A stretch of DNA of 62,461 nt. It comes from a virus. Of this stretch, positions 3,394 to 62,461 are shown in pieces. The notes under the pieces were generated by a model. That model was not told the DNA's origin and searched no databases. It saw nothing but the letters and a program-made list of their open reading frames with translations. The translations under genes were made by a program, and so were the position numbers. Position 1 is the stretch's first letter. Each line of letters starts with the position of its first letter. The stretch is taken from positions 1-62,461 of the IMG/VR virus record IMGVR_UViG_3300027719_000005; one strand, given 5' to 3'.

Positions 3394-4137
3394 ATGAAAA
3401 CAGAAAACGTTCAATTTAATTTTTCAGCGGGTATGAATAAGGCCGAGGTAATTATCCGCGAGGTAAGCACCGTTAATGAACTTCCGGTTAAGGCTCCGAT
3501 AAAAACCAACATATTTGGAACAATTGGAGCTCCTTACGCTTTTCTCTCGAAGCGGAAAGATGTTAAAGAGCAAATTGATCAAAATAGGTGCCATATCCTT
3601 GTTGACCGTAATCAAATTAGTATTATACTAATTATCAATGAGGATGAAGAGTACCATAGGGGAACAGTAATCGGAAGTCTTGCGTTTAACCCAAAATTTG
3701 AGGAGTTCAGAATTAATAATGATAAGGTTTGGACTCCTACGCAGCTCGGCATGTTCTTTAAGATGAACAGGGCTTTCTTCCCAGAAAGGGATGTTAATAT
3801 GAAGCTGGTTTCTGACCTTATGAACTTCACAGCCAATGTTAACAACAACATTGAAAGATCGGCAAATGAAAAAGGTGATCGGGTGGATAAGTTTGAGCAA
3901 GTGGTTAACTCCAATCTACCGAAGTCTTTCAACCTTGTAATCCCAATATTCAAGGGTATGCCAGCAGAGAATATTGAGGTTGAGACTTTCGCTCAGGTTA
4001 ACGGCAGGGAAGTTTCATTTGCCCTTATTTCTCCAGGCGCAATGTCAACACAGGAGGAAATACGCAACAGGATTATTGATGAGCAACTTAAATTAATTGC
4101 TGAAATCTGTCCTGAGATAGCAATTATTGAGCAGTAG
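3394..4137 (+). CDS. DUF2303-like protein (YfdQ family), 247 aa
   Basis: Residues about 110-225 follow the layout of DUF2303/YfdQ proteins: an aromatic 'FFKMNRAFFPE' stretch, a helical segment, then LPKSFNLVIPIFKGMPAENIEV and a beta-rich end before a helix EEIRNRIIDEQ. The family is common in phages, usually among early genes near recombination or single-strand annealing genes; its biochemical role is not known. It is preceded by the coiled-coil gene and followed by a perfect 14-bp inverted repeat. The assignment rests on motif resemblance. Confidence 0.6.
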   Translation: MKTENVQFNFSAGMNKAEVIIREVSTVNELPVKAPIKTNIFGTIGAPYAFLSKRKDVKEQIDQNRCHILVDRNQISIILIINEDEEYHRGTVIGSLAFNPKFEEFRINNDKVWTPTQLGMFFKMNRAFFPERDVNMKLVSDLMNFTANVNNNIERSANEKGDRVDKFEQVVNSNLPKSFNLVIPIFKGMPAENIEVETFAQVNGREVSFALISPGAMSTQEEIRNRIIDEQLKLIAEICPEIAIIEQ

Positions 4138-4899: not shown

Positions 4900-5319
4900 A
4901 TGAATACAATTAATCGAATATACAGAGTGCCTTACATGAAAGATAAATTTTCGTATGTAGGACTTTTAAGGAACGAAAAACGATTTAACATAAACGACAA
5001 AGTATTTTTCTCAATAAATGGAAGTGAAATTGCTTTTGGTCGCATTGTCGGAGTCGAATTGCCTCCAGTTGACAATCCTGAATACCTGTACAAAATTGAA
5101 TTGCCAGAAGAACTTATAAAGCAAAGAATGGAACATAAAGAGTTTTATGAGGGTAAAGAAATTGATAAAGTAATATTGAATTGTGAATCAATTTTTTCAA
5201 CAGTTCAAGAGGCTAAAGAATCAGCTCTAGCAAACCTCGAAAGAATGGCAAGAATACAGCAAAGAGAAATTGAAAAATACTTTGGTCAATTTTCAGAGTT
5301 GTCTCAAGATAATCGCTAA
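4900..5319 (+). CDS. Hypothetical protein, 139 aa
   Basis: The N-terminal half (residues 25-95) looks like a small beta barrel with FNINDKVFFSINGSEIAFGRIVGVEL, similar in outline to SH3-like or KOW-like folds. The C-terminal 40 residues form a charged helix (EAKESALANLERMARIQQREIEKYF). Function is unknown. It is the last gene before the cassette-like array. Confidence 0.6.
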   Translation: MNTINRIYRVPYMKDKFSYVGLLRNEKRFNINDKVFFSINGSEIAFGRIVGVELPPVDNPEYLYKIELPEELIKQRMEHKEFYEGKEIDKVILNCESIFSTVQEAKESALANLERMARIQQREIEKYFGQFSELSQDNR

Positions 5320-5375
5320 TAATAAATTATAGACTCAGGAAGGGCTTTGCGGGAAGGAATAACAAACAGAAACCA

Positions 5376-5462
5376 ATGAAAAAACAAATACTAATAGCAG
5401 GAAGTTGCTGTAAAATTTGCAAACATATGGGTTTGCGCAGGGATGCGTCAAGTGAAGTTTAA
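5376..5462 (+). CDS. Possible micro-ORF, 28 aa
   Basis: ATG at 5376 opens a 28-codon frame starting MKKQILIAGS and containing CCKICK, ending at TAA 5460-5462. The second half lies inside the 39-base spacer repeat, so it may be a remnant of a cassette gene truncated by the repeat rather than a functional gene. No family is recognised. Confidence 0.25.
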   Translation: MKKQILIAGSCCKICKHMGLRRDASSEV

Positions 5463-5469
5463 TTTAAAA
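5431..5469 (+). repeat. Spacer repeat A, copy 1
   Basis: This 39-base segment (beginning GTTTGCGCAGGGATGC) recurs at 6936-6974 with only two C/T differences. Both copies end 10-11 bases before the ATG of a small gene (5480 and 6985), so the repeat may carry the gene's 5' control region or a recombination site. Confidence 0.85.
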
Positions 5470-5479
5470 TTTTGGATAT

Positions 5480-5632
5480 ATGAAAGCAGGAGATACTATT
5501 ATTTTAGATGACGTTGCAGTAGTTACGGTTGTTTGGTGCAATGAAACACTGATGCAAGTAGAGTATAAAGATTTAACTAGGAGATTGCTTACAATAGCAA
5601 TGTATGACATAAAAATTTTAAAGTCAACGTAA
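5480..5632 (+). CDS. Small hypothetical cassette protein, 50 aa
   Basis: A 50-codon frame (MKAGDTIILDDVAVVTVVW, ending KILKST). Its sequence suggests a tiny beta barrel. Both its 5' leader (39-base repeat) and its 3' end, including the last codons LKST and the stop, are shared with the unrelated gene at 6985-7173. Different bodies therefore sit between the same flanks, which supports a real cassette unit. Confidence 0.55.
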   Translation: MKAGDTIILDDVAVVTVVWCNETLMQVEYKDLTRRLLTIAMYDIKILKST

Positions 5633-5649
5633 CGCAATTTGCCTATAAC
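5616..5649 (+). repeat. Spacer repeat B, copy 1
   Basis: This 34-base segment covers the final codons of the 50-aa gene and runs to GCCTATAAC. It recurs at 7157-7190 with one C/T difference. Its last 14 bases, AATTTGCCTATAAC, occur in inverted orientation at 6897-6910. In both copies it closes a cassette-like gene. Confidence 0.85.
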
Positions 5650-5715
5650 GTTGGTGGTTGGCGTTCGTTGCCGACCTTAATTTAATAGATAAATTAACTT
5701 AAAAGCAGAAATATT

Positions 5716-6009
5716 ATGAATACCGAAAAAGTATCAAAAAAGCAAAAAGGCAATGACGTTAACCACGTGTTACCTGCTGTTTTTGATTCTGTTGAACATG
5801 CCGTAAAAACGCTAAAATTAGACAGAAGGCATAAATGGGAGGAATGGAATGGTGAACTATCTTACCCTTACAAATATTCACACACTTGCACTGGTTGCGA
5901 TGGCGGTGGATGTAATGAGTGTGGGTATCACGGTAATTCAATAACTTATGTACCTGTACCAGCCTTTATGCCTGACGGCTCAATTGTCAAAGTGCGTTCT
6001 TTAAAATAG
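5716..6009 (+). CDS. Small putative zinc-finger protein, 97 aa
   Basis: The centre carries CTGCDGGGCNECGYHG (about residues 60-75), a DnaJ-type Cys/Gly zinc-finger-like arrangement. The N-terminus (SKKQKGNDVNHVLPA) is nearly shared with the next gene, although the rest of the two proteins differs. The gene is bracketed by a 10-bp inverted repeat: GTTACCTGCT at 5769-5778 inside the 5' end and AGCAGGTAAC at 6008-6017 overlapping the stop. Function is unknown. Confidence 0.6.
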   Translation: MNTEKVSKKQKGNDVNHVLPAVFDSVEHAVKTLKLDRRHKWEEWNGELSYPYKYSHTCTGCDGGGCNECGYHGNSITYVPVPAFMPDGSIVKVRSLK

Positions 6010-6076
6010 CAGGTAACGGTTGCGTATTGGCTTTGCTGCCAACGGGATTATAATTAATAACCAAACACTTTAAATT

Positions 6077-6403
6077 ATGAAGAAAGCATCTAAAAAGAAT
6101 GAGGGCAATAAAGTTAATACGCTGTTACCTGCTGATGCAGTTAAATTAAAGTTAACCCCTAAGCAGAATGCAGTAATTTTTTGCCTTCAAAATGGATGGG
6201 AATTAATTACTGACATGGAAATGTGCGGGGCAATAGTTGCCAATAACACAATGGAATACAGAATAAATAACGGATTATTCTTTAGATTAATAAACATGGA
6301 TTTGATATATCAGGGAGGTAGTGAAACTAGGCACTCTTTTACTTTAACGCCACTAGGCAAAAAATGTATAACGAAGCAAGTTTCATTCAACATAACAAAG
6401 TAG
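6077..6403 (+). CDS. Putative winged-helix protein, 108 aa
   Basis: The N-terminal leader (SKKNEGNKVNTLLPAD) matches that of the preceding gene. The remaining residues (LTPKQNAVIFCLQNG, RLINMDLIYQGG, HSFTLTPLGKK) look like a winged-helix DNA-binding domain, with a helix pair and a beta wing ending in the 'TplG' turn typical of such domains. A 9-bp inverted repeat, GTTACCTGC (6124-6132) and GCAGGTAAC (6409-6417), brackets it. It may be a regulator, but the target is unknown. Confidence 0.6.
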   Translation: MKKASKKNEGNKVNTLLPADAVKLKLTPKQNAVIFCLQNGWELITDMEMCGAIVANNTMEYRINNGLFFRLINMDLIYQGGSETRHSFTLTPLGKKCITKQVSFNITK

Positions 6404-6462
6404 CATTTGCAGGTAACGTAGAATGCAAGTGAAGTTTTTTAACCGACTTAAATACTAAAATT

Positions 6463-6744
6463 ATGAACTTTAGAAAAGAATTAGCCAGAGAATTAAACCT
6501 CGGAGCAATTGCGGAAGAAACAATGCTCCAAGATTATATAATAGCCTGTGAAGCGATTGCGGTTAAATACCACAAAGAACAGGTTAAAAAATTGCATTTG
6601 CATAGTGTTAGCAAGTGCGTGGATGTCGAGCGAGGGCATTCGGTTTGCTGTACTAAGTGTGGTAAATCGTTAAAACCAATATATATGTGTACTGCCTGTG
6701 TAGATACGGAAATGCAAAATAAGTTAAAGCAAACTGATTGCTAA
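6463..6744 (+). CDS. Small putative zinc-ribbon protein, 93 aa
   Basis: An N-terminal helix pair (ELARELNLGAIAEETM, DYIIACEAIA) is followed by Cys pairs CCTKC (about residues 63-67) and CTAC (about 77-80) that could bind one zinc ion. The stop codon lies inside the TAACG box that opens the large palindromic element at 6742, as expected if gene and spacer move as a unit. Function is unknown. Confidence 0.6.
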   Translation: MNFRKELARELNLGAIAEETMLQDYIIACEAIAVKYHKEQVKKLHLHSVSKCVDVERGHSVCCTKCGKSLKPIYMCTACVDTEMQNKLKQTDC

Positions 6745-6900
6745 CGCTCGTGGTTGATGCCGTTTGTGCGGCGTACTTCCGCACAAAAGCAAGGCATCTA
6801 AACGCCAGCGAGAGCCGCACGAATGGCATTAACCTTTTGTTATTGGTTGATTGAGTTACGAGTGAAGAGTAATAACATTGGCGTTTATCCACGAGCGTTA
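6742..6900 (+). repeat. Multi-armed palindromic element (three-way-junction-like)
   Basis: The outer arms TAACGCTCGTGG (6742-6753) and CCACGAGCGTTA (6889-6900) pair perfectly. Inside sit two further stems placed end to end. One is a hairpin 6756-6798 (GATGCC/GGCATC and TTTGTGCGG/CCGCACAAA). The other is a 9-bp pair TAAACGCCA (6799-6807) with TGGCGTTTA (6879-6887), which itself encloses TTAACC/GGTTGA. Folded as single-stranded DNA or RNA it would form a branched structure. It begins at a stop codon, as integron attC sites often do, but its branching is not typical of attC. A MITE-like insertion is an alternative. Confidence 0.75.
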
Positions 6901-6935
6901 TAGGCAAATTAGCAGACCGAGAGCAAACGTACTTT

Positions 6936-6974
6936 GTTTGCGTAGGGATGCGTTAAGTGAAGTTTAATTTAAAA
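6936..6974 (+). repeat. Spacer repeat A, copy 2
   Basis: The second copy of the 39-base repeat first seen at 5431-5469 (37 of 39 bases equal). It ends 10 bases before the ATG at 6985 and carries the AAGTGAAGTTT box. Confidence 0.85.
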
Positions 6975-6984
6975 CATTTATAGT

Positions 6985-7173
6985 ATGGAAATAACAGGCG
7001 CAATAATAATAGTGCAAATAGATAACGACAAGGCTTATCAAGTCGATATAAGTAGCGATAACGTTAAGGCACTTTTAGCTATGTATCAATATAGTAATGA
7101 CTGCTCTATTAAAATACTTGATAAGCCTTTAATCGGTTTGACTTTAACCAAAAATGTTTTAAAGTCAACGTAA
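6985..7173 (+). CDS. Small hypothetical cassette protein, 62 aa
   Basis: The product begins MEITGAIIIVQIDNDKAYQVD and ends VLKST. It looks like a compact alpha/beta protein of unknown family. The frame is enclosed by 14-bp inverted repeats GTTATAGGCAAATT (6897-6910) and AATTTGCCTATAAC (7177-7190). Its 5' leader and 3' end are shared with the otherwise different 50-aa gene at 5480. Confidence 0.6.
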   Translation: MEITGAIIIVQIDNDKAYQVDISSDNVKALLAMYQYSNDCSIKILDKPLIGLTLTKNVLKST

Positions 7174-7190
7174 TGCAATTTGCCTATAAC
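7157..7190 (+). repeat. Spacer repeat B, copy 2
   Basis: The second copy of the 34-base repeat at 5616-5649 (33 of 34 bases equal). It contains the end of the 62-aa gene and the inverted-repeat arm AATTTGCCTATAAC. Confidence 0.85.
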
Positions 7191-7231
7191 TATGTTATTA
7201 AAATACTTATTTACTAAATAACTGACTAATA

Positions 7232-8124: not shown

Positions 8125-8418
8125 ATGAACCAGTACATTAAAATTGCAATCTTAACATTACTCATTACAATATGTGTTAATGTGGCTATCTATGTACCCA
8201 GAATGATAATACTATCAAATTTGGAGTACAAGAGGACTTTTGTTCACTCTGTTTATGTAGGAAGTCTCAACGGTAAATCGAAGGAAATTAACCTTGGAGT
8301 TGTACTGGAAATATCGAAGTATAACGCATGGTTAGCCCGGATGAAATGGTTAAGGAGCCAAGGCTTGAGAGTCTGGATTCCGGTAGATATTGACAAGGAA
8401 ATATTCTATGAGCAGTAA
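8125..8418 (+). CDS. Single-pass membrane hypothetical protein, 97 aa
   Basis: An N-terminal hydrophobic segment (residues about 7-32: IAILTLLITICVNVAIYV onward) would anchor it in the inner membrane, leaving a soluble 65-residue C-terminal part. No lipobox is seen. Superinfection exclusion or host modification are possible roles for a small membrane protein in an accessory operon, but nothing in the sequence decides this. Confidence 0.55.
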   Translation: MNQYIKIAILTLLITICVNVAIYVPRMIILSNLEYKRTFVHSVYVGSLNGKSKEINLGVVLEISKYNAWLARMKWLRSQGLRVWIPVDIDKEIFYEQ

Positions 8419-8439
8419 AATAATTAATACATTTGCCTA

Positions 8440-8715
8440 ATGAACTCCATCGAGCAAAAAATATACAACCATGCCAAGGGAATAATACCTCAAGCATTAA
8501 TTAGGGTAAAGCAGATTGAAACGAAGGCAAGGCTTATTAATATTCCATTCTCTTGTGATGGTTGCATTTATCGCTTAATATTTGACAAAGAGGTCAATGG
8601 GTTCACAAAAATAATTTATTCAAATGTTAAAGGGGGTCATATGACCTTGGAGCGAGTAAGTAGTGTTGGGTATTTTGATGATATTGAGGTGGGTGAAATA
8701 GAAATATGTAGATAG
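8440..8715 (+). CDS. Hypothetical protein, 91 aa
   Basis: No family is recognised. An N-terminal helix (SIEQKIYNHAKGIIPQALIR) precedes a beta-rich part with FSCDGCIYRLIF and ERVSSVGYFDD. It is the last gene before a strong terminator 29 bases downstream, closing the accessory operon. Confidence 0.55.
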   Translation: MNSIEQKIYNHAKGIIPQALIRVKQIETKARLINIPFSCDGCIYRLIFDKEVNGFTKIIYSNVKGGHMTLERVSSVGYFDDIEVGEIEICR

Positions 8716-8743
8716 ATGGTAGCAGTTTAAATAAAGTTAGTTT

Positions 8744-8773
8744 AAAAAAGAGGAGCAATACCTCTTTTTTTTT
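8744..8773 (+). terminator. Rho-independent terminator ending the accessory operon
   Basis: The arms AAAAAAGAGG and CCTCTTTTTT pair over ten bases around a 7-base loop, and the T run continues to nine Ts. This is a classical intrinsic terminator for plus-strand transcripts. Confidence 0.85.
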
Positions 8774-9208: not shown

Positions 9209-11914
9209 TTACCCATTCCATGTAGTTGTTAAATCTGTATCTAGTCTATCCATCTGCATTAGCGTGGGTTTACATCCATGAACTAGCACTGTATATCTGC
9301 ATGATCGCTGTGTTTTGGTAATATGGACATCTACAACAGAGGATTGAATGAACGATTTACCATTGTTCAGGAAGATTAAACCCTCCTCGTTTAGCTGTCC
9401 ATACAGAAGAGTAGTTATCCTTCCATTGTTGCCTGTGATAACCTCTCTTAATACTGCCCTATTGACTTTTTTCTCGTCAGTATTGCCAAATCCACATGGT
9501 CGGCTAATAAGGAGTACTGGTAGGTTAATGCTTTCCTTGCCTAGTTCAACCAGATCAACGCTGTTGTTTCTGCTTATTAAAGCGTAGGTGTTCGGCCAGT
9601 TATTTGCCATCAGGTCGAATGACTCCGATCTCTTGTACCATAAACCAGAGTCGAATCCGAATATATAGGAGTACTGGTAGGTTGGATTGCTAACTATTAA
9701 CTCCTCGTTGATGTAGTCCACCGCAAGGGTGCTACCCTTTAGGTATGTTAAAAAGTCCACCTGGGATAAAGCATCATCATTCCCGAATAGATCAACCATG
9801 AGCGTGTTGAATAGATCGTTATTCACCAGATTATTGCTTACAGGACCGTTAACTGGATTGCTGATTAACTTAAAGGACTCTCCGTACAGGGAGATTATCC
9901 CTTTGTCGGTTGGGAATAGTATTCTCCCATTGTATGAAGTGGCTTTGCCTACCACTACCTCATCAGTTACAGGGATTACTCTTAGAACCATTACTTCGCC
10001 AGTTCCTATCTCCAGCGCAAATACTCCAGTAGTAGTAAATACTATCATGGGGTGCTGACCATATTGGAGCGCGGATAATGGCTTAGAGTTGGATATTAAT
10101 TGCAGGATTGAACCATTCCCCACCCTGTAGGAGTTCTTTGCCTCGAAGTATAGCGGATTATTAACAGCAGATACCTGTATTCGGTTATTGTCGGGAATGG
10201 AGTTAATAAATATATCTGAGGCTATTTCTAGCTCTGTGTACACTGTGGGGTATTTCCATGTCATTTGATTGAACAAATCCCAAGACATCCTCACGTAATC
10301 GGTATGCCTAGTTCTTTCCCCAGAAGTTCTTGTTGTAGAGGTAGGGATTGTTTCATCTATATCGGGCTGATAACCCATTAAAGAAAAGGAGTAGTTGAAA
10401 GAAGGGTGAGGTGTCATATCAGACGAAAAAGCAATGTATGTACTTCCTCCATCCGGCTTTACCAGAATATTAAACTTAACAGCCCTGCTATCTGGATAGT
10501 AAATACAGAAAGGAAGGTTTAAGTGAGTATCGCTATTAGCATAACCATCGCTTCGTAAGTGTATATTACCCACAGAGGTTTTCAGGATAAACTCAAACCA
10601 AACAGTCTTACTAACTCCTCCCGGATATGAAGCGGTATTGTATGATTTTGGTACCGGAGAAAAGTAGTTGATTATGCCTCCCATCCATAGTCGGGAATTA
10701 TAGATAAAAGACGATGATGCATACATTCTGATGTCTGATAACTGCTCTGTAGGCATAGAATCCTTGGTGTGAATGGCCGTAATATCCCCCAAACTTATTG
10801 TTGTGGGCGATACAATATCTAAATCATCTAAAGGAATTGTATGAACCTTGTAGAGCTGCGTGTCTTTAATCATTAGGTCGGGTGTAATGTTTTCATCATC
10901 CTCAATACTCTCGTTTAATTCCCAGGGAGAAACATTTCCACCGTTACTTCGTCCGTAATAATAATCATCTCTTTGGTTATTGTACGATTTGATTCTATGA
11001 TAAACCCTGCTCATATAAATATTTACACCCATTACCAACCCTTTATATTGAGAATTTAACTCCTCTAACACTCCTGAGTTAATACTTGGTATAGAGTACT
11101 GCAATGTGCCGGGATCAAGGGCTACAAATACTTTATCATTGCTACTAAATACGGCTACCTGTACTTCGCTAGAACTATCATACTTATCTGTGATTTGACC
11201 TCGAATGTGCATAATAATAGGCTTGGAGTGACCTACTATAGAGCCATCAAATAGCTCATAGGCGTACCGAATCACCACGTAACCGTTAATCATTCCCTCC
11301 TTCTCCCAGTTATTATAGGCAATATCAAGTACGGTCATTATCTGATCATACCTTTCATCCGATGAGCTATCGTAGTCTATTCTACCAACCGGAACGGCAG
11401 TTGATACTCCATTAGCCATGAGCCAAGAGGCATAATCTTTAAAGTTGTCATACCCTAGGTATGCACTATTAGGCTTGTTGTGAAAGTTAATTTCTAGCGG
11501 TTTGGGTACTGCATCCCCAACGTATCGGTAGTTGTTTATTTCAATATCGTAAAGGATATAGTGCATCTTCTTACTGCTATCGTCAAATACGATGAGAATA
11601 TTCCCTATCGTTTCGAACCTTACCTGCTTACTGGTGCCAAGGGTAAATATATCCACAAGAACACTCCCTTGCTTTTGCTTAATCTTTCCGGTAGGCTCAT
11701 GGTACACCACAATAAAAGAACCTGAGTTTGTATTGTGAACACACATAGCCTCAATTCCGCTTCCAATGGTGAACTGGTTGGTTTTGCCCTTCACGTTCTG
11801 CCACTTCCCATTCTTGTACCGCGCGTTAATCAACTCTTGGCACTCTATCATCTCGGCCTTATTGGTTAGGCTACTCCTGTTTATCCCCTTTAGGGTTGAC
11901 TCTACTGTTGCCAT
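9209..11914 (-). CDS. Large virion structural protein, probable tail hub/stabilisation type
   Basis: The 901-residue protein begins with an N-terminal 'ELINARYKNGKWQNVKG' element and continues with many short beta strands and Gly/Asn/Asp turns, as in beta-propeller tail-hub or stabilisation proteins of podoviruses (P22 gp10-like or crAss-like stabilisation proteins). No enzymatic motif is seen. The segment PLSALQYGQHPMIVFTTTG followed by GRILFPTDKGIISLYG looks like successive propeller blades. It is transcribed from the minus strand with the small HTH gene upstream, which it overlaps by 44 bases, and ends at a bidirectional terminator. The assignment comes from composition and position, not a firm motif. 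Confidence 0.55.
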   Translation of the reverse strand: MATVESTLKGINRSSLTNKAEMIECQELINARYKNGKWQNVKGKTNQFTIGSGIEAMCVHNTNSGSFIVVYHEPTGKIKQKQGSVLVDIFTLGTSKQVRFETIGNILIVFDDSSKKMHYILYDIEINNYRYVGDAVPKPLEINFHNKPNSAYLGYDNFKDYASWLMANGVSTAVPVGRIDYDSSSDERYDQIMTVLDIAYNNWEKEGMINGYVVIRYAYELFDGSIVGHSKPIIMHIRGQITDKYDSSSEVQVAVFSSNDKVFVALDPGTLQYSIPSINSGVLEELNSQYKGLVMGVNIYMSRVYHRIKSYNNQRDDYYYGRSNGGNVSPWELNESIEDDENITPDLMIKDTQLYKVHTIPLDDLDIVSPTTISLGDITAIHTKDSMPTEQLSDIRMYASSSFIYNSRLWMGGIINYFSPVPKSYNTASYPGGVSKTVWFEFILKTSVGNIHLRSDGYANSDTHLNLPFCIYYPDSRAVKFNILVKPDGGSTYIAFSSDMTPHPSFNYSFSLMGYQPDIDETIPTSTTRTSGERTRHTDYVRMSWDLFNQMTWKYPTVYTELEIASDIFINSIPDNNRIQVSAVNNPLYFEAKNSYRVGNGSILQLISNSKPLSALQYGQHPMIVFTTTGVFALEIGTGEVMVLRVIPVTDEVVVGKATSYNGRILFPTDKGIISLYGESFKLISNPVNGPVSNNLVNNDLFNTLMVDLFGNDDALSQVDFLTYLKGSTLAVDYINEELIVSNPTYQYSYIFGFDSGLWYKRSESFDLMANNWPNTYALISRNNSVDLVELGKESINLPVLLISRPCGFGNTDEKKVNRAVLREVITGNNGRITTLLYGQLNEEGLIFLNNGKSFIQSSVVDVHITKTQRSCRYTVLVHGCKPTLMQMDRLDTDLTTTWNG

Positions 11915-14456: not shown

Positions 14457-17400
14457 ATGTCCACTGAAAATACAATAGCCAAAATACTTGCTGAACGTAA
14501 TAGCAAAACTCCTGTTAATACAAATGTTGATGATATTGATAAGGGCTACGAGGAATGGAAAGCCCAAAACAATCCATCAAAAGCACCCGAAAAACAGGAG
14601 GATATTACCACCCTAAACAGTGAAATATCCTCACTGAGCAATAGAGTAAAGGAGTATGATGCTATTGATAGTGGCAAAAATAACAGTAGGGCTACAACTA
14701 CAGGGATGTATTCAGGGGGTATGAGCGTTCTGGATGCAGTAAAACCGCTAAAAGAAACCAACGATAAGTACACCGAACTAAGCAAAACTATCGTACAGGA
14801 TAGGGAGCGTTTGGCAGAGCTAAGCAAGAAAAGAGACGCTATAATTAGCGGCTCCGTTGATCCAATAATACAGCAGGTAAAATCGAAAAAAACGGAAATA
14901 TCCGATCAACTAGAAAGATCATACTCTGATTTAGAGAATACGCTTAATGAGGAGTATGACACAGCCGATCCGTTGAAAGCCTTGGAGTACGAGAAGAAAA
15001 GGCAGGAAACCACAAGGCTGATTGAAAGGAAGCAAGCCTTAACTCTATCTGAGGACTATCTTGTCAGAATGAAAGATTTGGCTAATGTTTCTCCAGATAA
15101 ATACATACAGGCACTAGGACAAGGATTTGCAAACCATGACTGGGTAGATATTGCCACTCTAGGGTTAAAGTCAATGGAGGATAACTTCAATCTTGCCAGT
15201 ATTTCAAAAAAAATTATGGCCGGAACCGCCACAGAGGAGGAGAAGGTTGCCTTAACTCTGTACAGCCAATTTAACCAGTTAGCCGCAACCAAGGATAAAC
15301 CTGTTACCTACGATATTGCACAGTCATTCATCCAATCTCTACCCTATATGGCTGATATTGCCATATCTGGAGGGGTTAGGGGAGCGATTACAAAGGGTAT
15401 TACAAAGGGAATTGGAAGAACGGTAGTTAACCTGTCCGATAATGTAGCAGGGATTGTTGCCAATAAAACGGCTCAAAAAGCGGTTAAAGGAACAATAAAG
15501 AATACTGCTAAAATAGCCACTCAGGCCACAGGGGCAATTGCTTCTTCTCCATTGCAGATGAATATGTACAATAACTTTTCCGAAAATAGACTAGCAAACT
15601 ATGTTATTGACTACGACAATGCCGGAGAAGTAATGGTGAGAGAGGCCAAGGATTCTGAAAATGTAGCAGAATCTATGATTAGAGCTATGGCATTAACAGC
15701 ATCCGCAACATTCTCCGAGAGTAGCGGTGTAATTTTCGATGATGCCTTTTCTGCCATTGGGAAAAAGTTCTCTCTGAATAAGCTTAACCCCCATTTTCAA
15801 AACAGCCTTAGTCGAGGTTTTGGTGCAGTAAAGAAAGCCACCAGTTTAAACCAAACATTCGGGGAGGTTGGTGAGGAGTACATTAATAAATTTACGGACA
15901 TTCTAGTTACAAACCCACGAGAAGAGGATGCCAATCAGGATGAGTGGGCCAATTTCTTCAACACAAGGGAAGGATTAACGATACTTGGATCAACCTTGAT
16001 TACTCAAGGAATGTTCAAGGCGCAATACGCTCCACACTTGGTTGACTTAGCAAAGACAAAATCCATCGTTAAGGAGAATGAAACCCTATTGCCGGAAGAA
16101 ATAAGGGCTAAGATAGTTCAGGCCATGAGTGCAAAAACGGCCAACGAGCAAGTTGATGGACTGGTGAACCTAAAATTAGGGAGCATTGAGAACCCTGAGG
16201 AGCGCAGAAGTGTTGTTAACTACATCAAGAGCAAAATTGAGTATGATTTTGTAAAAGGAGTAGCGCAGGGCGATCAGGAAATATACCGGATTAGAAAGGT
16301 AGATGATAGCGTGGCCTCCATTGCTCATAAAGAATCAGGCAAGGTTGTTATTGTTACCGAAACAAACCAGCAAGACCCCAACAACGAGGCTTATGTTATA
16401 GCAGGGAACATTGAAGGGGAGAAAACCGACCTTGTTACCATTATTACCAGCGAGGGTGAAAAGAAGATGGTATCCATAGCCAATCTTAGCATAACAAATA
16501 CGGTTGATGTAAAAGAGCTAAGGGATAACCTGGTAATTGCCGAACTCTCGAAGTTAGAACAGGAAACAGCCCAAGAGGAAGGGATTGAAAAAGCGGAATC
16601 TTTAGGGATCAATGCAGAGGAAGTACCCAGTATTGGGGAGGAGTTACCATTGCCCGATGGAAGTACCATTAAAATAGTATCCGTTGATACCAATGGGGTA
16701 TCATTTGATGTGCTTGACGCGGAGGGAATACCCGCCATGACCAAAAGCCTCAGCTTTGAGGAGTACTCTCAGATGGTTCAACCTACCGCAGAGAATCAAC
16801 CAGTCGAGGGTGGACAACCTGTAATATCCGAGCAGGACACTGAACAAGCACCTATTAGCGAAACCCCTAAAACCATCAAGACCTTAACCGACGGTAAGCA
16901 TAATTTAAGCGTTGCTTTGGATGAGAATAACGAGGGTATTTCTCAGGAGGTATATGATAACCTTCCCGATGCGGAGAAGGTGGTTAATTCCTTGTCGAAA
17001 CGATTCTCCAAGTTGGAGTTTAACATAGTGGACCAATCGGGCGATGATGTATTCTCCCCTGATGCCTATGTTATTTCCGTTAAACCAAGATCAGTTAAAA
17101 GTGTAATTAATCAGCAAGCCAATGAAACCATTGAAAGTGCTATCACCCCAGAAGAAAGCATCACTCCTGAGGCAGTCGTTGATCAAGTTAGCGAACAAGC
17201 AGAAGAAGGACAAATTAAAGAAGTAACCAATGAGCAAGACATACAAGGACAACAAGCATATCCCGAAATTGAGAACCAGGAACAAGTTAAGGGTGAAGAA
17301 ATACGACAGGAAGAAGGACAAAAACCTATCGGAGTAGATGAATTAAATAACACCCAAGCAGAAGAGTTAATCCCTGTTGATGATTCCTCCATAGGTAAAC

Positions 17401-20400
17401 TTAACGAGGAAGAAATAGCCCTTGTTCAGAGCAAACTTGATGATCCTGACGAACCACAGGATCAGAAGGAATACTGGGTAGAGGATATTGAAAAGTTAAA
17501 GACCAACCCTAAAAAGTACTGGAGTGAGTTTTTGGTACAGAAAGGAAATACTGCAAGGGAGGATCAAATTCTATCTATTCAGGACTATTACAACAACAAG
17601 CCTATTATTCAAGACCTAGACGCTCACGTTTCGGAGATTGACAAGAAAGCAGAGATTCAGTCCGAGGAGAAGAAAGTTAATATTGAACCTACTGAGGCGC
17701 AGAAAGAGGCAGGAAACTACAAGAAAGGCCATGTGACTATTGGTGGTTTTGATATTACCATTGAGAACCCTAAAGGATCGTTCCGAAAAGGAAAAGATCG
17801 TAGCGGGAAGGAGTGGAAAGTAAAGATGAACAACACCTACGGTTACTTTAAGCGAACCAAAGGGAAGGATGGGGAGCAAATAGATGTATTCCTTGGGGAA
17901 AATCCAGAGACAGGCAGAATATTCGTGGTGGATCAACTGGGAAAATCTGGAAAACTAACCTTATTTGATGAGCATAAGGTTATGATGGGCTTTAAATCCG
18001 AGAAGGAAGCCAAGGAAGCCTATAAATCTAACTACTCAAAGGACTGGGATGGGTTTGGAGCAATTACCGAAATGTCTAGGGAAGAATTTAAGGCGTGGAT
18101 TGGTGATGGTACCCGAACTAAAAACCCTGTAGAGTGGAAACAGAAACAGAAGAAGTCTAACCCTAACGCTTTTCTACCTAAACAGGCCATTGAATTGCTT
18201 AAATCTGATCCAAACAGTATTGATGAGGCCATTATTCAGCATATACTAAACGGAGGTAAGTTTAGCCGGAACGACTATATACGCCATTCAGGGTTTATGG
18301 ATGGCAGTAAGGAGCTTAACACCGCATCGTTTAACGGCCTGATAAACGGAAAAGATCAGGAGGAGGGGATGCAGTTTGATACATTCCTTGGTACACTAGG
18401 GAATGATTTTGGCATGAACGATGGCATTGATTTAACCAACGCTATTGTTGATGTGCTGAAACTTTCCACCAGAGCCAACCTAGCGAGACGATTAATTGAG
18501 GCATCGGGTACCAGTCAGGATAATCACCCACACCTAAACGATGATTACGCTCAAGGATTAGCGGAACAGGAGGAGGCATTGCGTTTAGCGGAGGATGAGT
18601 TAATGAACGAAGTAGCCGTACTTTTTTACTCAAATTATCCTCAAATAACTAACCAAGAATATGCAGAATTATTTAACTTTGGAGAAAATGAATACAATGA
18701 GCAACGAAATGAACCAACAGCCGAAGGAGACATTCGAACAGTTCAAGGAGAGACTGGAGAAGATGGTGGAGTCGATAATGCAGGAGACAGGCAAGACGAA
18801 ACTGGAAGTGTACCGGGAATTGAAGTGGATGGGCGAACAGAAGGCGAAGGAAGTGCAGAAGTAAACCCCCAAAACCAAGTTCCCGAAGTCGGGAATATGG
18901 TAGAATCACAAGAAGTTGATCGTGTTCCTGATACAAAGGAAACGATAGAAACTACAAAAAAAACATTTTTATTCATGTCCGATAGCCCTATGCACCAAGC
19001 AAGGGCTTTAGGTGTGTTAACTAGAAACACAAAGGTAGATGGCGTAGTAATGCCAATTTACCAATGGATTGAAGGATTACCAAGCGGATTAGGGGTAGGA
19101 AAACAAAAGATTTATACCAAAAACGCTAAATCTGACGATGGATCAGTAGAAAAATTAGTCTTAGGAAATTATATTGTAGGTTCAAAAGCAGAACAAGATT
19201 ACTATAACTATATTCAAACTGGGGGTGTTTCTTACACTCAATTCCTTGCAGACAAGAAAGTGCAGGATGAAATCATTGCAGAGAAAAAAAGAATTGAGAA
19301 AGAGGCGCAGGATAAGATATTTGAAGATAAGCGCAGAAATGATAATGAGGCATACAAAAAAGCTAAGGAAGATCAAATAAAAGAACTTATCGAGAAAGGA
19401 AAACAGCCAACAATTGATAAGTTTACCGAATCATTTAAGAATAAAATAAAACAACTTCAATCTAAGCCTCAAACAAGTGCGGTAAAAGAAGAAATAGCCT
19501 ACAATAACAGAATGATAGAGCAAACTATCAGTCAGGTTGAAAGCAGTTACGATATTGCAACAACCATGTATGAAGTTATTGAAGGAGAAGTTAAGCCAAA
19601 ATATACTTTCAGTATAGGGGATAAGGTATTGTTCCCTGCAACAATTGACCACAAACAAACTCTTATTGAAACTGTCATTGAGTCAAGCAGATCGGATAAT
19701 AACGATAAGATTATTTTTAAGGTAGCGAAAAAAGAAGGCATAGTAAATCCATACAGTTCATACGATGGATTGAGACCTGTTATAGATAACGACCAGTCGA
19801 GTCCAGAAAATAAAAACCCTGAGAACGTTTCTAATGTCGATGCAATCAAATCTGTAATATCCTTACAGGACGAGCAGGAAACTACCATTAGTAGGCTTAA
19901 ATCTATTGCGGCTCAACCACAGAAAACCGCCAAGGATAATCAGGACAAGACACAACTAGAATACAAATTAGGACAGATTGAGGAAAAACTTAACAAGGCT
20001 CAAGCCTTAGTTAATATTCCTGCCGAAAAATTACCCGCAGTTACTAAGTTAGTACGACAAGCATTGGCCGAAGAGAAAGCCATTGATGCTAGGATTGAGT
20101 CGTTAAACTCCCAGAAAAAGAACAAGGAGAAGGAATTTAATACCCGCAATGGTGTATTTGGGGATAATAAGGAGATTGCCGACAAAGCAAAAGGGCAACA
20201 ATCCCTATTTGCTGGAGATATATTTGAGGCCAGCACTAACACTTTAGCCAATACCATTAAGCCTATTAACGACAGTATAGCCAAACTGGAGGAGGAGAAA
20301 CAGCGCAATGCTAAAATCCTTACCGATAAGGTTGAACTGGAGTTACAGGGAGCGCAACAGGAGATTAAGGAGGAGGTTAAAGCGGAACCAAAAGGAGACC

Positions 20401-23400
20401 TATTTCTAAAGGCAAGTGAAATTATTGAAACAAGCCCAAAAGGCAGGGTATTGTCAGATATTAATGAATTAATACACACTGCAAAGAACATACAACAATT
20501 AAAACAACTATTAGAACTTCCTTATATAAAACAAACATTCGGGTTGGTTCAAGAAGTTAATAGTGCAATTAACTATCTTGAAAGACATCCTGAAAAGCAA
20601 GAGCAACAGGTTAATCAAAGCGAAAAAGGCGATTTTGACTTTGAGGCTCTTTTTGAAGAAACGCCATCAAATGAAGTCAATGGGAAACAAGAACCGGACA
20701 ACTACGAAGATTGGTATCAAAATAGCAGTTTTTCTAAGAAATGGGCCGCAACTAGAGCTGAGGCTATAGAGAAGGTAAAACAAACCTACATTAATGCTTT
20801 ACGGACAAAGAATGAATGGGAGAGTAAGGATTATAAAAATCACGGAGGAAGCGTAGAGGTTGGTAAAAATAAAGATGATTTCGATGGAGGAAATGTAGGC
20901 ATTGACTATATCAACAATAAGCGAAAAAAAGATGCGATTAGTAATGCAATATCGGATACAGAACAGGCTATTACCGATTTGAAAAGTTTAAAACTGTCAC
21001 AATCGGAGATAGATAATTTTATTTCAAGCATAAGCAAAGCAGAACAGCCAAAAGTTAAGCCCGAATTTGCAGGGAGTGTTCTTGAAACGGAGAGTAAAAC
21101 AGAAAACAAAACCTACTCTATACCAGAAACATTCAACCTATCAACATTCTCCAAATTTAGCACAGAGTTAAGCAATGGTAATGTTCAGGTAGATGATTTT
21201 AAGAAAGCCTTTAACGTACTAATTGAGAGTAAGGCTTCAATTATTGAGGAGTTATCCAAGAAAACAAAAGCGGAGTTACTAGCCAACATGAACAGCATGG
21301 GGCAGTATCGCTACAAGAACGAAAATAAGGACTCTATAGTTAAGGCTTTATTCAGCGATATGCTGATGACGTTTTCTTTTGGTAGTATTTCCTACAATAT
21401 GGGCGAAACCATAGAACAGGCTATAACTAAAAAAGTTGACGCTACTACACAGGAGCAAATTAACGACTATGTGGACGAGACCAAGAAGCGTAGGGAGGAG
21501 TATTTGGAGCGTGTTAAAGCCCACAAGAAAGCACTATCAAACCCAGAAACGCTTGAGGAGTTTAAGGTATTCATTAAGTATAACGGAATTGAGAAACTAT
21601 CTCCAGAGCAAAAGGCTACCTACGATGATTTAGTTACCGACAAGGTACTTGAAAATAGAAGTGACGATGCTAAAAAAGGAGCGATAGTAGAGAAGGTAGA
21701 TTTAGGTGACACAGAAATGTCTATTGCTGAAACTAAGCACACCAAAACTGGCATACCTTTATTTGTTGTTCGTTTATCTGCAAGAATACCTGAGGAACAG
21801 TACAAGGAGTTGAATAAAAAGGCAAAACAACTTGGAGGTTACTACTCATCATACGCAAAAGATGGAGCGATACCGGGTTTTCAATTCAAAACTTTAGAAC
21901 AAGCCCAGGCGTTTAGTGGACTTAAAACTCAGGATGCCTCAAATATTGATATAAAAGAGGAGGTAAAGGAGCAAAAAGTAGAGCAGAAAATCTCCAAACT
22001 AAGGGAGAACGCTCAAAAGATTATAGAGAGGGTTGACTCTGAGTTAAACAGAGACAGGCTAACTAATACTGCAAAGAGAGCAAGAGAAGCCGCTTCTACA
22101 GAGGCTAGGTTGAACGAGGAGAAGCGTATTGCTCAAACCATGCTTAACATTGCCGATGCAATAGAGAATGGAGATGTAAAACTACTCGATGGCATTAAGG
22201 CAAAAACTCACATAGAACTACTGGATAACCTTATTAAATCAGCAAAATACGCTGAAATAAGTAGCAAGGCTGAAAGTTATTCTGATAGACAGAAGTATGA
22301 AGGAGAACCCGCGACACTTGAGACTATTGAATACCTGAAAAATGGATTCTACCCAAGCATTTACGGAACAACGCTGAAAGATGTAATTAACAAGGTTGAG
22401 AACAAGCCCGGATTAAAACAACTTGCGACTAAATGGAGTAAGAAGTTATCTGGACTAGGAGAATACGACAGTTACCAAGTAACAAATGATACAGATATAT
22501 CCGAAATAGAGCAACTATTCAACGGGTTATCAGAGAGCGATAAGAAGTACAACCGTATAGGCACAGTATTAGCCGACTTTAACAGGCTAAAGACAATGGG
22601 TATTGAAAACGACTCCATGCTACGTGCCGCACTTAGGGAGTACATTCAGTTCCGTGGCAAAAAACAGGCTCCTGACAAAGTTAAGGAGTTAGAACGAGCC
22701 ATTGTTGGCCGTGCAAAGAATTTGGGTGTTGACTTCTTTCCGACTCCAGCAGAGACCGCTAAGATGATGGTTGAACTAGCAGGGGTTACTGAGGATATGG
22801 AAATACTTGAGCCAAGCGCAGGGAACGGCAATATAGCAGACCAAATTAAGCAAGTAGGTGTAATGCCTGATGTTATAGAAATATCCTCAGAATTATCCGA
22901 AATACTCAAGGCTAAAGGCTACGATGTAGTGGCAGATGATTTTATGGAGTACACTGAAAAGAAGTACGATAGAATCATAATGAATCCTCCTTTCTCAAAT
23001 GGAATGGATGGAGACCATGTAAAACACGCCTACGAAATACTTAAACCGGGAGGGAAACTTGTTGCTATTGTTGGAGAGGGAACATTTATTAGGAACGATA
23101 AAAAAGCCACAGCATTTAGGGAGTGGCTTGAAGAGGTTGGAGGCAATGAGACTAAACTAGAAAGCGGAACATTCCAAGATAAAACCTTGCTTAATACCAC
23201 TGGAGCAAACGCTAGAATTGTTGTTATCGAGAAAGAAGGTGAATTTATTGATGATACACCAGATGAAACTGTAGATAAACAGGAAGTAGTTAACGAGAAT
23301 GTTTCTCAGGATAAAAAAGAGGTTGAACAAGAACAGTTAGAGGCAGTAGAGCCTATAAATGATATTCAGGACTTTGGGGAGAAGGTAGGAGGAGCCAGAA

Positions 23401-26400
23401 AAGATATGGGTATAACCCGAACCGCAAGGGAAAAGGACTCTATGCCAGCATGGAGAAGAAAGTATGAGTATGCAAACCCTAATGGAACGGTAATGCTAAT
23501 TGGTAAAGTGGACACCTCTAAGCCTTTTATTGTGAACTTCTTTGAGGAAGTAAAAGGCATGATGGGTAAACACAGCCGACAAATTATAGTAAGCGAAGTA
23601 AAGGATGGGTATATTACAAGGAATCCAATGATTTTTAGCTCAGAGGAGGAGGCAGAAAATTACATACCTATATACGAAGTTCACAGACAAGGTTATAAAA
23701 TAAACCAAAAGGGCGATGAATTTGTAATTTACAAACGTGCTTCTACAGGTAAAGCCCTTGAGTTTGATAAATTTCCAACCATTGAGGACGCACAGGCTTA
23801 CATAAACTCCACAGAGGGAGCAACATCTCTTCTTAACAGGAAAAGGGAGTCGTTTAGTATTCCAAGCCTTGAAAGAGTACAACGAACCGGAAAGGACTAC
23901 AGGCAAGGTAAGAACATTTCTACCGATGAGTTTTATAATACATTTGGATTTAGAGGTGGAGAGTTTGGAAAGTGGGTAAAACCAGAGGAGCGACAAGCCC
24001 TTTTAAACATTGCCTACGACTCTTTAATGGATATGGCGAACTTACTAAACCTTCCTCCAAAAGCATTGTCTCTAAACGGTGAACTTTCAATCGCATTTGG
24101 AGCAAGAGGGATTGGTGGACTAGAGGGAGGCGTAAAAGCACACTACGAAGGTAATAGGGCTGTAATAAACATGACCAGACTAAACGGAGCAGGAAGTTTA
24201 GCCCATGAATGGATGCATGCCCTTGATAACTACTTTGGATTGCAGGATGCTAAACAAGATTACTCCAGGGATGATAAAGGCGAACTGATTAGTAAGGATT
24301 ACTTCTTCTCAGAGGTAAAAACCTACAAGGCTGGAATGAGACCAGAACTTAAAAAGGCACTGGAGGAAATTTTGGACAACCTAGTTAAGAAAACCGTTAC
24401 TAGAGATATAGCCCAAGATGCTAAACAAAAACTCTACGATGGGTTTGAAAGGAGTATTTTAGGAGAAGCAGACCGTTTAAAGGCAAAACTGAATAATGGG
24501 GTGCGAACTTATAAATACAACAGAAAGACCAAACAAAGAGAGGAAGTTGTAGTAAAAGCAACCGCAGAGCAACTAGAGAAGGCCAATGCCTTAATAGATA
24601 AAATCACATCAGGCAACTCTGAAAAGCCTAAATGGCAATCCATAACCGCTAATTCTTTTGGTGATTACTCGTATATCAGCGATGATATTAGAGCTCTTGA
24701 CGAGATATATAAATCAGTGTTTGGGGGAACCGGTTTAAAGAGAAACGGCAACGGATATTATAACTTTGGCTATTACGCTGAAAAGTTATACCACATCAAG
24801 GAAGAACTAGAGAAAGCGAAAAACGGAGAGCAGGAAACAGTAAAAATTAAAACGGATTTACTGGATAGCTCCTCACGATTTGACGCATCAAGAGTTAGCC
24901 CTTACTATAGTAAGCCAATTGAAATGCTTGCGAGAGCCTTTGAGCAGTATATGGTAACTAAACTTGGAACAGAAAAGAGCGACTATTTACAGTACGATAA
25001 AAGCCCAGTTTACAAGGCTCTTTACGATATTACTCCATACCCAGAGGGAGAAGAGTTAGAGACATTAAACAAAGCCTTTGACAACCTATTTAGCGCAATT
25101 AAAACCGAGGAGAGGGAGGATGGCAATGTGGTGATGTTTAAAGCCAACAACCCAACCTTTTACCCCAATGCAGAGAAATCCTTAGAGTCATTAAGCGATA
25201 ACAACAGAACACCCGAACAATGGAGAGCCGAACTGCTAAAGAACGGAGCCAAGGAATCTGAGTTAAACTACATGGGATGGAGCCAATTTGTAGAGGGTAA
25301 GAGAACCTTGACAAAAAATGACTTGACAGAATTTGTCAACTCGAATAAGGTGGAGGTGCAAGAGGTTGTAAAACAAACAGAACCTCTTCAAGTAACAAAA
25401 AATGATGCTTTAAAAGCAGAATTGGTTGATGATATGTGGTATGTTGATTTCGGACAAACAACAGTACCTATTAGAAAATTCTCAGCCGAAACAAAAGAAG
25501 AAGCAATTGAACAAGCGGTAGAAGAGTATAATGAAAATATTGGGGAATATAATACAAATGGAAACACCAAATTCGCCCAGTACTCCACCCCCGGAGGCAA
25601 GAACTACAGGGAGGTGTTGCTGACTTTGCCTAGTTTTAAATTACCTCCTAAAGCAGACGATAAATTAAGACTAGAATTGCTATTTGAAAAAAGAAAACGA
25701 ATTACAGAGAGTGAAAATCCAGACCAAGAACAACTAAGAATAATTAATGATAAAATAGAAATTATTTCTAATAGAATTGATGAGTCAAAAGATTTTCGAA
25801 GTTCCCACTTCAACGAACCCAACATAGCCGCCCACGTAAGACTAAGCGAATTTACCGACAAGCAAGGTAGAAGAGTACTGTTAGTAGACGAGGTGCAGAG
25901 TGATTGGGCGCAGAAAGGGAAAAAAGAAGGATTTAAGGTTCCTGCTGAATTTAACGAAGAAGAATTTAAGGATTGGTATGAAAGAGTCAAAACTGACCAA
26001 GAACCAAACTATTCCGACCTGCAAAACGACAATAAGTTTTATAATTACGCCAAGCAAGTATTTCTTGATGAGAAACAGGAGCGCATAGATAGAGATGCTG
26101 TTCCCGATATGCCATTCAAGAAAACCGACCAGTGGGTAGGCTTAGGAATGAAGTGGGCGATACAGTATGCCGCCAAGAATGGTTTTGATGGCGTGGCTTG
26201 GACTACTGGAGAGCAACAGGCCGAGAGGTATGATTTGAGTAAACAGGTGGACAGCATAGCAACAAAGAAAGAAAGGAATGGACTTTATACTATTTTGGGA
26301 AACAAAAATGGCAAACATGTATTTACTCAAATTGATATTCCAGAAAATAAACTTGAAGGAATTATAGGGAAAGACCTTGCCAAAAAAATTATTGATTATC

Positions 26401-50891: not shown

Positions 50892-52079
50892 TTAATCATC
50901 AAGTAAATGGTTGATATTATTACTCATTTCCTCCGTGTCGAAATCTCCATGATACCTTTTATGTACCGCTTCCGATGAGTGGCCCACTAACTGCATCCTC
51001 ATTTCAATAGGAATACCTTTCTTTTTGAGAATATCCACAAAAGAGTGCCTTGCTGTGTGAAACGTAATCAGTTTATCTATTTTTGCTTTCAGCGCGATTG
51101 ATTTTAAAGATTTATTCACCACTGCATTAATAGAGGATACCCCATTTTCGTACTTTAGGAGATCATCATAATGATGTTTAAGTAGAGGAAATAGGTAGTA
51201 ACTATCATTGTTTTTATACTTATTGACAATATCTAAGCACTTATCATCCATAACCAGAGTCATTCTTTTAGTAAAGTTACTTTTGCTGGTCATGTAGGAC
51301 AGAGTATTACCTTTTATATTCTCATTTTTGAGCAAGGCTACATCTCTGAAACGCATACCCCAACAGTAAAAAGCGAAAAGAAACATATCTTTTGAAAGAG
51401 ATAGGACCGGGGCAGATAGCACCAGGTTATCTATACTTTTTATTTCTTCCAACGTTAAACGATCCTTCAAAACTTCCTCCCCTTGCGTTTCAACCTCGTT
51501 GAATGGTTTTTTATCAACATGACCATTTTTAACAGCCTCATGGTACGCTCTCCTCAATACTTTAAAGTTTGACTGGACAGTATTGGCATTATTAGTCTTT
51601 TGAAGGTGTAATTTGTAATCGACTAGAAGCTCTGGAGTAATTTCATCAACAGGTAAGGGATTATTAACGTATGTTTTGAATTTTTTCAGCACAGTAAGCC
51701 AAAGTCTATACGTTCCCTGTTTGCCACACTTCAAGTAAAAATCTCTTTTATTTTCTGCAATAGCAAAGAAATCAGGCTTAGATTCTTCCTCTGTACTTTT
51801 AAGGATTAACTCATCAACAGTAATACTCTTATTGCTGATCATGGCCTCATAAATCTTGTCCTGTATTTGGCTGACAATCTTATTGGCCGTTCTATTTGAT
51901 TTAAGAAAATCTGGATGATTTTGCTTTAGCAAGCCTGTTTTTTTATCAAACTGACTTTCAGTGGCACTATCTATGATTAGATACTTCTCTCTACCCTGGG
52001 AGGAAACTCTCACCACATAGGGGTACTTATTATCTTTGAGAGGCTTATTTTTCTTGAGCATTAAAGTAACTGTTGCCAT
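50892..52079 (-). CDS. int: Tyrosine recombinase (phage integrase)
   Basis: The 395-residue protein has the catalytic set of tyrosine recombinases: Arg243 in GMRFRDVALL, His341 and Arg344 in FHTARHSF, His367 in VGHSS, and the nucleophile Tyr376 in HKRYHG. The N-terminal 85 residues match the arm-binding domain of Bacteroidetes integrases, followed by a SAM-like core-binding domain (about 100-200). It integrates the circular phage DNA by recombining attP with a host tRNA gene. The attP core lies about 180 bases upstream of its start. Confidence 0.93.
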   Translation of the reverse strand: MATVTLMLKKNKPLKDNKYPYVVRVSSQGREKYLIIDSATESQFDKKTGLLKQNHPDFLKSNRTANKIVSQIQDKIYEAMISNKSITVDELILKSTEEESKPDFFAIAENKRDFYLKCGKQGTYRLWLTVLKKFKTYVNNPLPVDEITPELLVDYKLHLQKTNNANTVQSNFKVLRRAYHEAVKNGHVDKKPFNEVETQGEEVLKDRLTLEEIKSIDNLVLSAPVLSLSKDMFLFAFYCWGMRFRDVALLKNENIKGNTLSYMTSKSNFTKRMTLVMDDKCLDIVNKYKNNDSYYLFPLLKHHYDDLLKYENGVSSINAVVNKSLKSIALKAKIDKLITFHTARHSFVDILKKKGIPIEMRMQLVGHSSEAVHKRYHGDFDTEEMSNNINHLLDD

Positions 52080-62444: not shown

Positions 62445-62461
62445 GACCATGAAAAACCTAC
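62335..62461. repeat. Terminal direct repeat, second copy
   Basis: Identical to bases 1-127. It should be removed when the circular sequence is written; the last 13 bases are the start of the 128-aa gene at 115. Confidence 0.9.

Follow-up and report, generated by a model that had tools for sequence, protein, structure and literature searches.

The stretch of DNA analysed here, referred to as the window, comprises the 62,461 nucleotides of IMG/VR record IMGVR_UViG_3300027719_000005. Profile searches of its proteins revealed portal, terminase and major-head-type proteins together with a phage integrase, which defines the record as a phage; its host group is probably Bacteroidota. Early genes reach the right end of the record (62444-62461) and continue on the same strand at its left end (1-115), and the genome is therefore probably circularly permuted or circular and cut within the early operon. 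Elsewhere in the window, positions 14457-31181 form a single ORF of 5574 aa, and ARAGORN places a tRNA-Arg (CCT) at 9671-9747, within a long minus-strand ORF, which is probably spurious. The region at 5320-7231 belongs to the early operon and contains five small ORFs:

ORF A, 5480-5632, plus strand: 50 aa; C-terminus ...LKST; no family
ORF B, 5716-6009, plus strand: 97 aa; residues 1-17 are a leader encoded by attC1, the remainder is a CxxC...CxxC protein common to other phages
ORF C, 6077-6403, plus strand: 108 aa; leader encoded by attC2 (..VNTLLPA); no family
ORF D, 6463-6744, plus strand: 93 aa; N-terminal half inside attC3
ORF E, 6985-7173, plus strand: 62 aa; C-terminus ...LKST

No family was recognised for any of the five, with sub-threshold weak matches only in Pfam, and searches of Pfam, PHROGs, NCBIfam, PADLOC and PDB assigned no function to the cassette proteins; ORF B gave one weak PDB match, to a transposase region (E = 0.012). 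Judged by eye, the body of ORF C bears a likeness to a small winged-helix protein and the C-terminal half of ORF D to a small zinc ribbon. Protein C and the neighbouring gene at 4900-5319 have no relatives among the viral contigs, and proteins C and D have none in the phage records.

The spacers between these genes are built from recurring elements, among them two long repeats:

39-nt repeat copy 1, 5431-5469, plus strand: before ORF A; 5' end common to cassettes of type A/E
39-nt repeat copy 2, 6936-6974, plus strand: before ORF E
42-nt repeat copy 1, 5608-5649, plus strand: end of ORF A; shared 3' end coding for LKST-stop, plus R box
42-nt repeat copy 2, 7149-7190, plus strand: shared 3' end, as at ORF A

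The original prediction had described these parts from the letters alone, and most of its description stands. The two copies of the 39-nt repeat are 95% identical, as claimed; the second repeat, given there as 34 bases, is present but extends over 42 nt (90% identity). TAAC(G) follows the stop codons at precisely the positions named (5646, 6014, 6414, 6742 and 7187), and the box reported before three of the genes, AAGTGAAGTTT, has exactly three copies in the window of 62 kb, all of them within the array region. The related pattern GCAGGTAACG, with at most one mismatch, is found 9 times in the window (1.8 expected). The pentamer TAACG is common in the window (120 copies, 85 expected), and the signal is therefore carried by position and pairing and not by count. 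It corresponds to the canonical CGTTA of R' read on the other strand, and the start of a cassette is the reverse complement of its own end (5750-5783/6003-6036, 6124-6138/6403-6417 and 6897-6910/7177-7190).

These features were formalised in a chain finder. An attC link was defined as AAC, a short spacer and a stem of at least 6 bp, closed by the complementary stem, a short spacer and GTT; a cassette link runs from GTT to AAC, its two ends being complementary over at least 8 bp. When the whole window was searched, one unbroken chain of eight alternating attC and cassette links at 5647-7190 joined cassettes A to E; the R arms measure 10, 9, 8 and 14 bp, the L stems 6, 7, 6 and 8 bp. In 500 Markov shuffles of the whole window, the longest chain had one (287 shuffles), two (204) or three links (9); the thresholds were chosen after the region had been inspected, but the gap to the shuffles is wide and the chain is unchanged under looser settings. 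The chain resolves into four attC sites, given in gene orientation, and four cassette units:

attC1, 5647-5771, minus strand: AAC-GTTG-GTGGTT...AACCAC-GT-GTT; polar finder score 6.6; also in the chain finder; contains the start codon and leader of ORF B
attC2, 6015-6126, minus strand: AAC-GGTT-GCGTATT...AATACGC-T-GTT; minus strand CAGCAGGTAACAGCGTATT; polar finder score 7.6; also in the chain finder; contains the start codon and leader of ORF C
attC3, 6415-6609, minus strand: AAC-GTAGA-ATGCAA...TTGCAT-AGT-GTT; inner arms of 22 nt, 86%; polar finder score 6.8; also in the chain finder; includes the beginning of ORF D (start codon, ~48 codons)
attC4, 6743-6899, no strand assigned: long cruciform with outer stem AACGCTCGTGG/CCACGAGCGTT; from folding and the chain finder
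Cassette unit B, 5650-6017, plus strand: attC1 and ORF B; common to phage contig L149; sharp right border at AAC
Cassette unit C, 6018-6417, plus strand: attC2 and ORF C; R arms GTTACCTGC/GCAGGTAAC
Cassette unit D, 6418-6745, plus strand: attC3 and ORF D; R arms GTTAGCAA/TTGCTAAC
Cassette unit E, 6746-7190, plus strand: attC4 and ORF E; R arms GTTATAGGCAAATT/AATTTGCCTATAAC, 14 bp exact

Thus, all four junctions combine R''/L''/L'/R' complementarity with short spacers and an AAC/GTT core, and each of the units B-E starts with GTT, ends with AAC and has mutually complementary arms, as circularisable cassettes need. Around attC4, the DNA at 6738-6910 folds far better than its shuffles (z = -6.65; -6.41 in a second computation), but its polarity is unreadable because the spacer itself pairs (GCTC/GAGC) and leaves no unpaired spacer. 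Four linked sites and no recognised integron integrase place the region within the definition of a CALIN (at least two neighbouring attC sites, no integron integrase). The common spacer grammar seen originally is thus the attC architecture of integrons, and the statement that no classical attC can be shown does not hold, since the chain finder recovers the arms at every junction. The accompanying claims fared better: the array is cassette-like and lies inside a phage, and no integron integrase was recognised among the window proteins scanned, the tyrosine recombinase at 50892-52079 being a standard phage integrase with an arm-binding domain.

Cassettes A and E contain an additional inner inverted repeat (TTTTAAAGTCAAC-G-TAACGCAAT / ATGCGTTA-AGTGAA-GTTTAATTTAAAA), which looks like a second, nested attC split between TATAAC and GTTATA. 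This inner repeat accounts for the same 39- and 42-nt ends and the same LKST terminus around different bodies; its polarity departs from the rule that is found for phages below.

Cassettes of class 1 and Vibrio integrons likewise comprise one gene and one attC per unit, with an AAC/GTT core, R and L arms and unpaired spacers. The phage array differs from them in its R' boxes and in the orientation of its genes, among other things. None of its R' boxes (GTTACCT, GTTACCT, GTTAGCA, GTTATAG) fits the strict GTTRRRY consensus, which the chromosomal Bacteroidota sites inspected also miss, and its genes are reversed: each cassette holds one ORF, but antiparallel to the attC instead of in the usual parallel orientation. 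This orientation was determined with a polarity-aware finder that had been written before other phage arrays were inspected and that searches for AAC followed by A.., a stem, and ..C followed by GTT, with a left spacer of 1-3 nt and a right spacer of 4-6 nt. At a looser cut-off of 6.5, attC1-3 were detected on the minus strand only, with all ORFs on the plus strand; the counts that follow rest on a stricter cut-off, which these sites do not reach. Four other phage records yielded 36 antiparallel and 6 parallel sites, whereas in chromosomal Bacteroidota loci the gene beside R'' was parallel in 73 cases and antiparallel in 6. At the level of arrays, all five phages were antiparallel, a small sample, four members of which are from cassette B or were reached through it, and the chromosomal arrays were parallel in 17 cases, antiparallel in none and tied in one.

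The spacers tell the same asymmetry when read in gene orientation with the polarity-blind chain finder: (4,2), (4,1) and (5,3) in the window, besides an uninformative (0,0), compared with (5,3), (5,2) and (5,3) in contig L164, (5,3), (5,2) and (5,2) in G398, (6,3) and (5,2) in Polaribacter phage P12002L, and 5/6 in G397. In addition, the left arm of attC2, read on the minus strand, matches a chromosomal site in locus L131 (CAGCAGGTAACAGCGTGTAT) almost exactly. The reversal of the genes relative to bacterial cassettes suggests that phages keep and exchange a cassette pool of their own.

Because the attC sites read on the strand opposite to the genes, the start codons and leaders of ORFs B, C and D lie inside attC. 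The translated arms give the motifs ..VNHVLPA in protein B and ..VNTLLPA in protein C, and ..ANTVLPD, ..VYTVLPT and ..LYTVLPT in other phages. In the AlphaFold model of protein B, the first 16 residues are of low confidence and the fold begins thereafter (pLDDT below 50 in the leader, about 85 in the body), as the model would be expected to treat an added tail. Homologues of B in the array-less phages L163 and L168 begin directly at the body, and the one in L152 has an unrelated N-terminus. In L163, L168 and L152/L153, B is thus an ordinary phage gene that has neither attC nor the VLP leader, and its occurrence with and without attC is a possible before-and-after pair for cassette formation. 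On the minus strand of L160, two different proteins at 6802-7176 and 8198-8770 (G398 26802-27176 and 28198-28770) have their last 16 residues in common (94%); like the LKST of A and E, these are perhaps C-termini encoded by the site itself. A model in which ORFs B-D cross the recombination point and borrow the start codon of the previous cassette was dropped, as the polarity puts attC and ORF in one unit; if attC and the ORF after it form the unit, the crossover point stays outside the ORF.

Cassette B provides the most direct view of exchange. It is present in three other phage arrays on viral contigs, L149, L150 and L164 (the latter also sampled a second time as L165), and was absent from the 396 Bacteroidota genomes searched. 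The record behind L149 is a phage with portal, terminase and head protease and has six attC sites, all antiparallel to their genes, and B sits there among neighbours that differ from those in the window. DNA identity between the window and L149 is 90% over the B body, from GTTACC to the AAC after the stop, but 61% over attC1 and the leader, 51% past AAC and 50% upstream of attC, with a background mean of 46% and a maximum of 54%. Similarly, blastn matches stop shortly after AAC, at 6020 for G398 (three bases beyond it) and at 6022 for G397 (five bases). The left border of the unit is less sharp than the right one, and L149 has GCT instead of GTT in the core. Among the four phages, the attC stems before B vary in a compensatory manner (GTGGTT/AACCAC, AGTATT/AATACT, GTATAT/ATATAC), as do the R arms (ACCTGC/GCAGGT and ACCCACC/GGTGGGT). 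The drop of identity at the AAC core in L149 favours the gene exchange at spacers that was originally proposed. As to whether the region is a phage exchange system or a captured chromosomal array, which had been left as alternatives, the four phage arrays with B, its absence from the genomes and the opposite polarity lean towards a phage pool.

The record behind L150, IMGVR_UViG_3300025839_000011, is 93 kb long and encodes a DNA ligase, a sigma factor and a tail-fibre attachment protein. Between 69.8 and 92.2 kb (L154-L158) it carries 33 attC sites together with dozens of tiny ORFs, which with few exceptions lie on the opposite strand; a cytosine methyltransferase is among the cargo. It is the largest phage cassette array that we met, and ORFs that appear intein-like by eye are located at 10268 and 15856. 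No tyrosine recombinase domain was found in the records of L149, L150 and L151. Several searches for relatives of the window array gave nothing: exact spacer patterns had no match in viral contigs, or a chance match that looked like an RNA phage; distant blastn against phages and plasmids and a two-arm gapped spacer pattern against genomes had none; blastn of the region against the 396 Bacteroidota genomes returned only matches of ~30-55 bp near the threshold; and relatives traced by terminase and by the gene at 3394-4137 lacked a comparable array in the parts retrieved.

The phage attC sites have their closest counterparts on Bacteroidota chromosomes, beside a XerA-like integrase of about 345 aa. 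A shorter spacer pattern, derived from attC2, matched genomes 45 times; the one match seen as a real site is in Kaistella chaponensis (L005), and of the remainder about half fall in one conserved coding sequence, probably a phosphofructokinase, and the rest are scattered. In K. chaponensis, hairpins built in the same way lie between three genes, and a 363-aa tyrosine recombinase lies at the end of a different contig. Relatives of this enzyme (E <= 1e-40) occur in 94 of 297 Bacteroidota genomes, not every one of which need be an array integrase because many align over the recombinase domain only. In 41 loci (701 kb, Kaistella included), the polar finder detected 81 attC sites, compared with 2 expected from shuffles, which identifies these loci as cassette arrays. 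Their attC sites are mostly 122-127 nt long (first 21 loci), about 124. The arrays in L005, L122-L141 and L169-L188 are beside or near a XerA-like recombinase with an extra N-terminal domain. The array enzymes have 345-370 aa and an N-terminal extension and are closer to XerA than to IntI, the model of which matches in two stretches; five of them scored 190-204 bits with TIGR02249, below its cut-off of 265, and the Kaistella enzyme has no match at model positions about 180-241, the IntI-specific insertion. Together, the arrays and their enzyme look like a widespread, little-described integron class. Chromosomal arrays (L126, L131, L137 and Kaistella L005) resemble the phage array in attC arms, spacer asymmetry and lengths of ~124 nt, but differ in that their genes and attC sites point the same way, the start codon following R', and that an integrase adjoins or is near.

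Taken together, the region is very probably a CALIN of integron-type cassettes in the early operon of a Bacteroidota phage, in which ORF and attC are antiparallel and cassettes would be exchanged by an integrase acting in trans. The attC architecture, the antiparallel polarity of three sites, the leaders within attC and the recurrence of one unit in other phages, with a border at the boundary, are observed; recombination by a host enzyme and a benefit of the cargo are inferred. The mobile unit would consist of one attC hairpin followed by one small ORF opposite to the attC polarity, which would place the start codon just after or inside attC; in the latter case, the L and R arms would be translated as a short leader (..V-N/Y-x-V/L-L-P..). 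Excision and insertion would take place at the AAC/GTT boundary, with the unit in the form of a folded single strand. With no integron integrase seen in the phage, mobilisation would need a host enzyme, presumably an integron-type or XerA-like integrase acting in trans, and read-through within the phage operon would provide for expression of the cassettes. As recombination would here involve the coding strand, transcription of the operon may expose it. The cargo may benefit the phage, and the methyltransferases in sister arrays suggest counter-defence. A more specific version, in which phages maintain a pool with genes fixed antiparallel, exchange is coupled to early-operon transcription through a host XerA-like integrase and the arms double as leaders, is a tentative proposal.

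The reversal could also be one of reading and not of function, if another phage or host recombinase reads the opposite strand asymmetry, so that gene and site are parallel for it. The phage arrays have no known integrase and polarity was calibrated on chromosomal arrays, both of which would fit, but the chromosomal likeness of the attC2 minus strand speaks against it, as does a published experiment: of two attC sites of P12002L tested by Qi et al. 2023 (PMC9892861), P12002L_attC2 underwent recombination with attI1 in E. coli when IntI1 was supplied, through its bottom strand only. Ordinary polarity rules may thus apply to such phage sites, and we regard a differently reading enzyme as unlikely. 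Slightly less credit goes to a captured and now immobile piece of a chromosomal integron array without exchange between phages. The close resemblance to chromosomal sites speaks for such a capture, as does a Vibrio prophage with a captured array piece that is reported in PMC9892861; but the polarity of the phage array is opposite to that of chromosomal arrays, and neither the distribution of B, in several phages and 0 of 396 Bacteroidota genomes, nor its changed neighbours in L149 agrees with it.

Ordinary mosaicism, meaning homologous recombination at conserved intergenic hairpins or terminators without a site-specific recombinase, would be served by the repeated flanks, would account for hairpins after stops that look like terminators and would be in line with B in attC-less phages (L163, L168, L152). 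It does not predict the complementarity of cassette starts and ends, the AAC/GTT rule, the asymmetric unpaired spacers or the compensatory stems, and is very unlikely. Single attC-like hairpins are common by chance, with 60 L-stem pairs in the window, but chance hairpins and repeats in AT-rich DNA as an explanation of the whole array are refuted by the chain statistics and the recurrence in four other phages, and can practically be dismissed. The reading as a phage CALIN with reversed cassettes is therefore preferred.

CALINs, i.e. attC clusters without an integrase, were already known in phages (Qi et al. 2023, PMC9892861). Such arrays, P12002L included, share with the window the lack of an integron integrase and, as described there, DNA methyltransferases among the cargo, and with the polar finder used here P12002L has the same antiparallel polarity as the window array. 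They differ in that the paper describes divergent attC directions in P12002L but, in the text consulted, no systematic reversal, attC-encoded starts or phage-shared cassette. In contrast to class 1 and Vibrio integrons, no intI was recognised among the phage proteins scanned and no attI or Pc was noticed. In fused cassettes (PMC4670013), the coding sequence also traverses attC-derived DNA, but there after partial or total attC loss, whereas the phage attC arms are intact and translated as a leader. Integrons of Bacteroidota are scarcely reported; for Bacteroidetes proper, IntegronFinder 2 (PMC9024848) lists a single complete integron, in Salinibacter ruber. Reversed polarity as a rule, attC-encoded leaders and a cassette common to phage arrays are unreported in the literature searched, which lay outside most subscription journals and all preprints, and as far as we found they are new.

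With these results, integron cassettes would no longer be confined to gene exchange in bacteria but would also form a standing pool of accessory genes in Bacteroidota phages, and phage and chromosomal arrays are told apart by a polarity rule, gene against attC. The results also provide a signature for detecting phage arrays that standard integron models may miss, and they point to the little-described integrons of Bacteroidota, with an integrase that is without the usual IntI hallmark. The use of host integrases by phages for shuffling small genes, which probably act in the interaction with the host, becomes testable.
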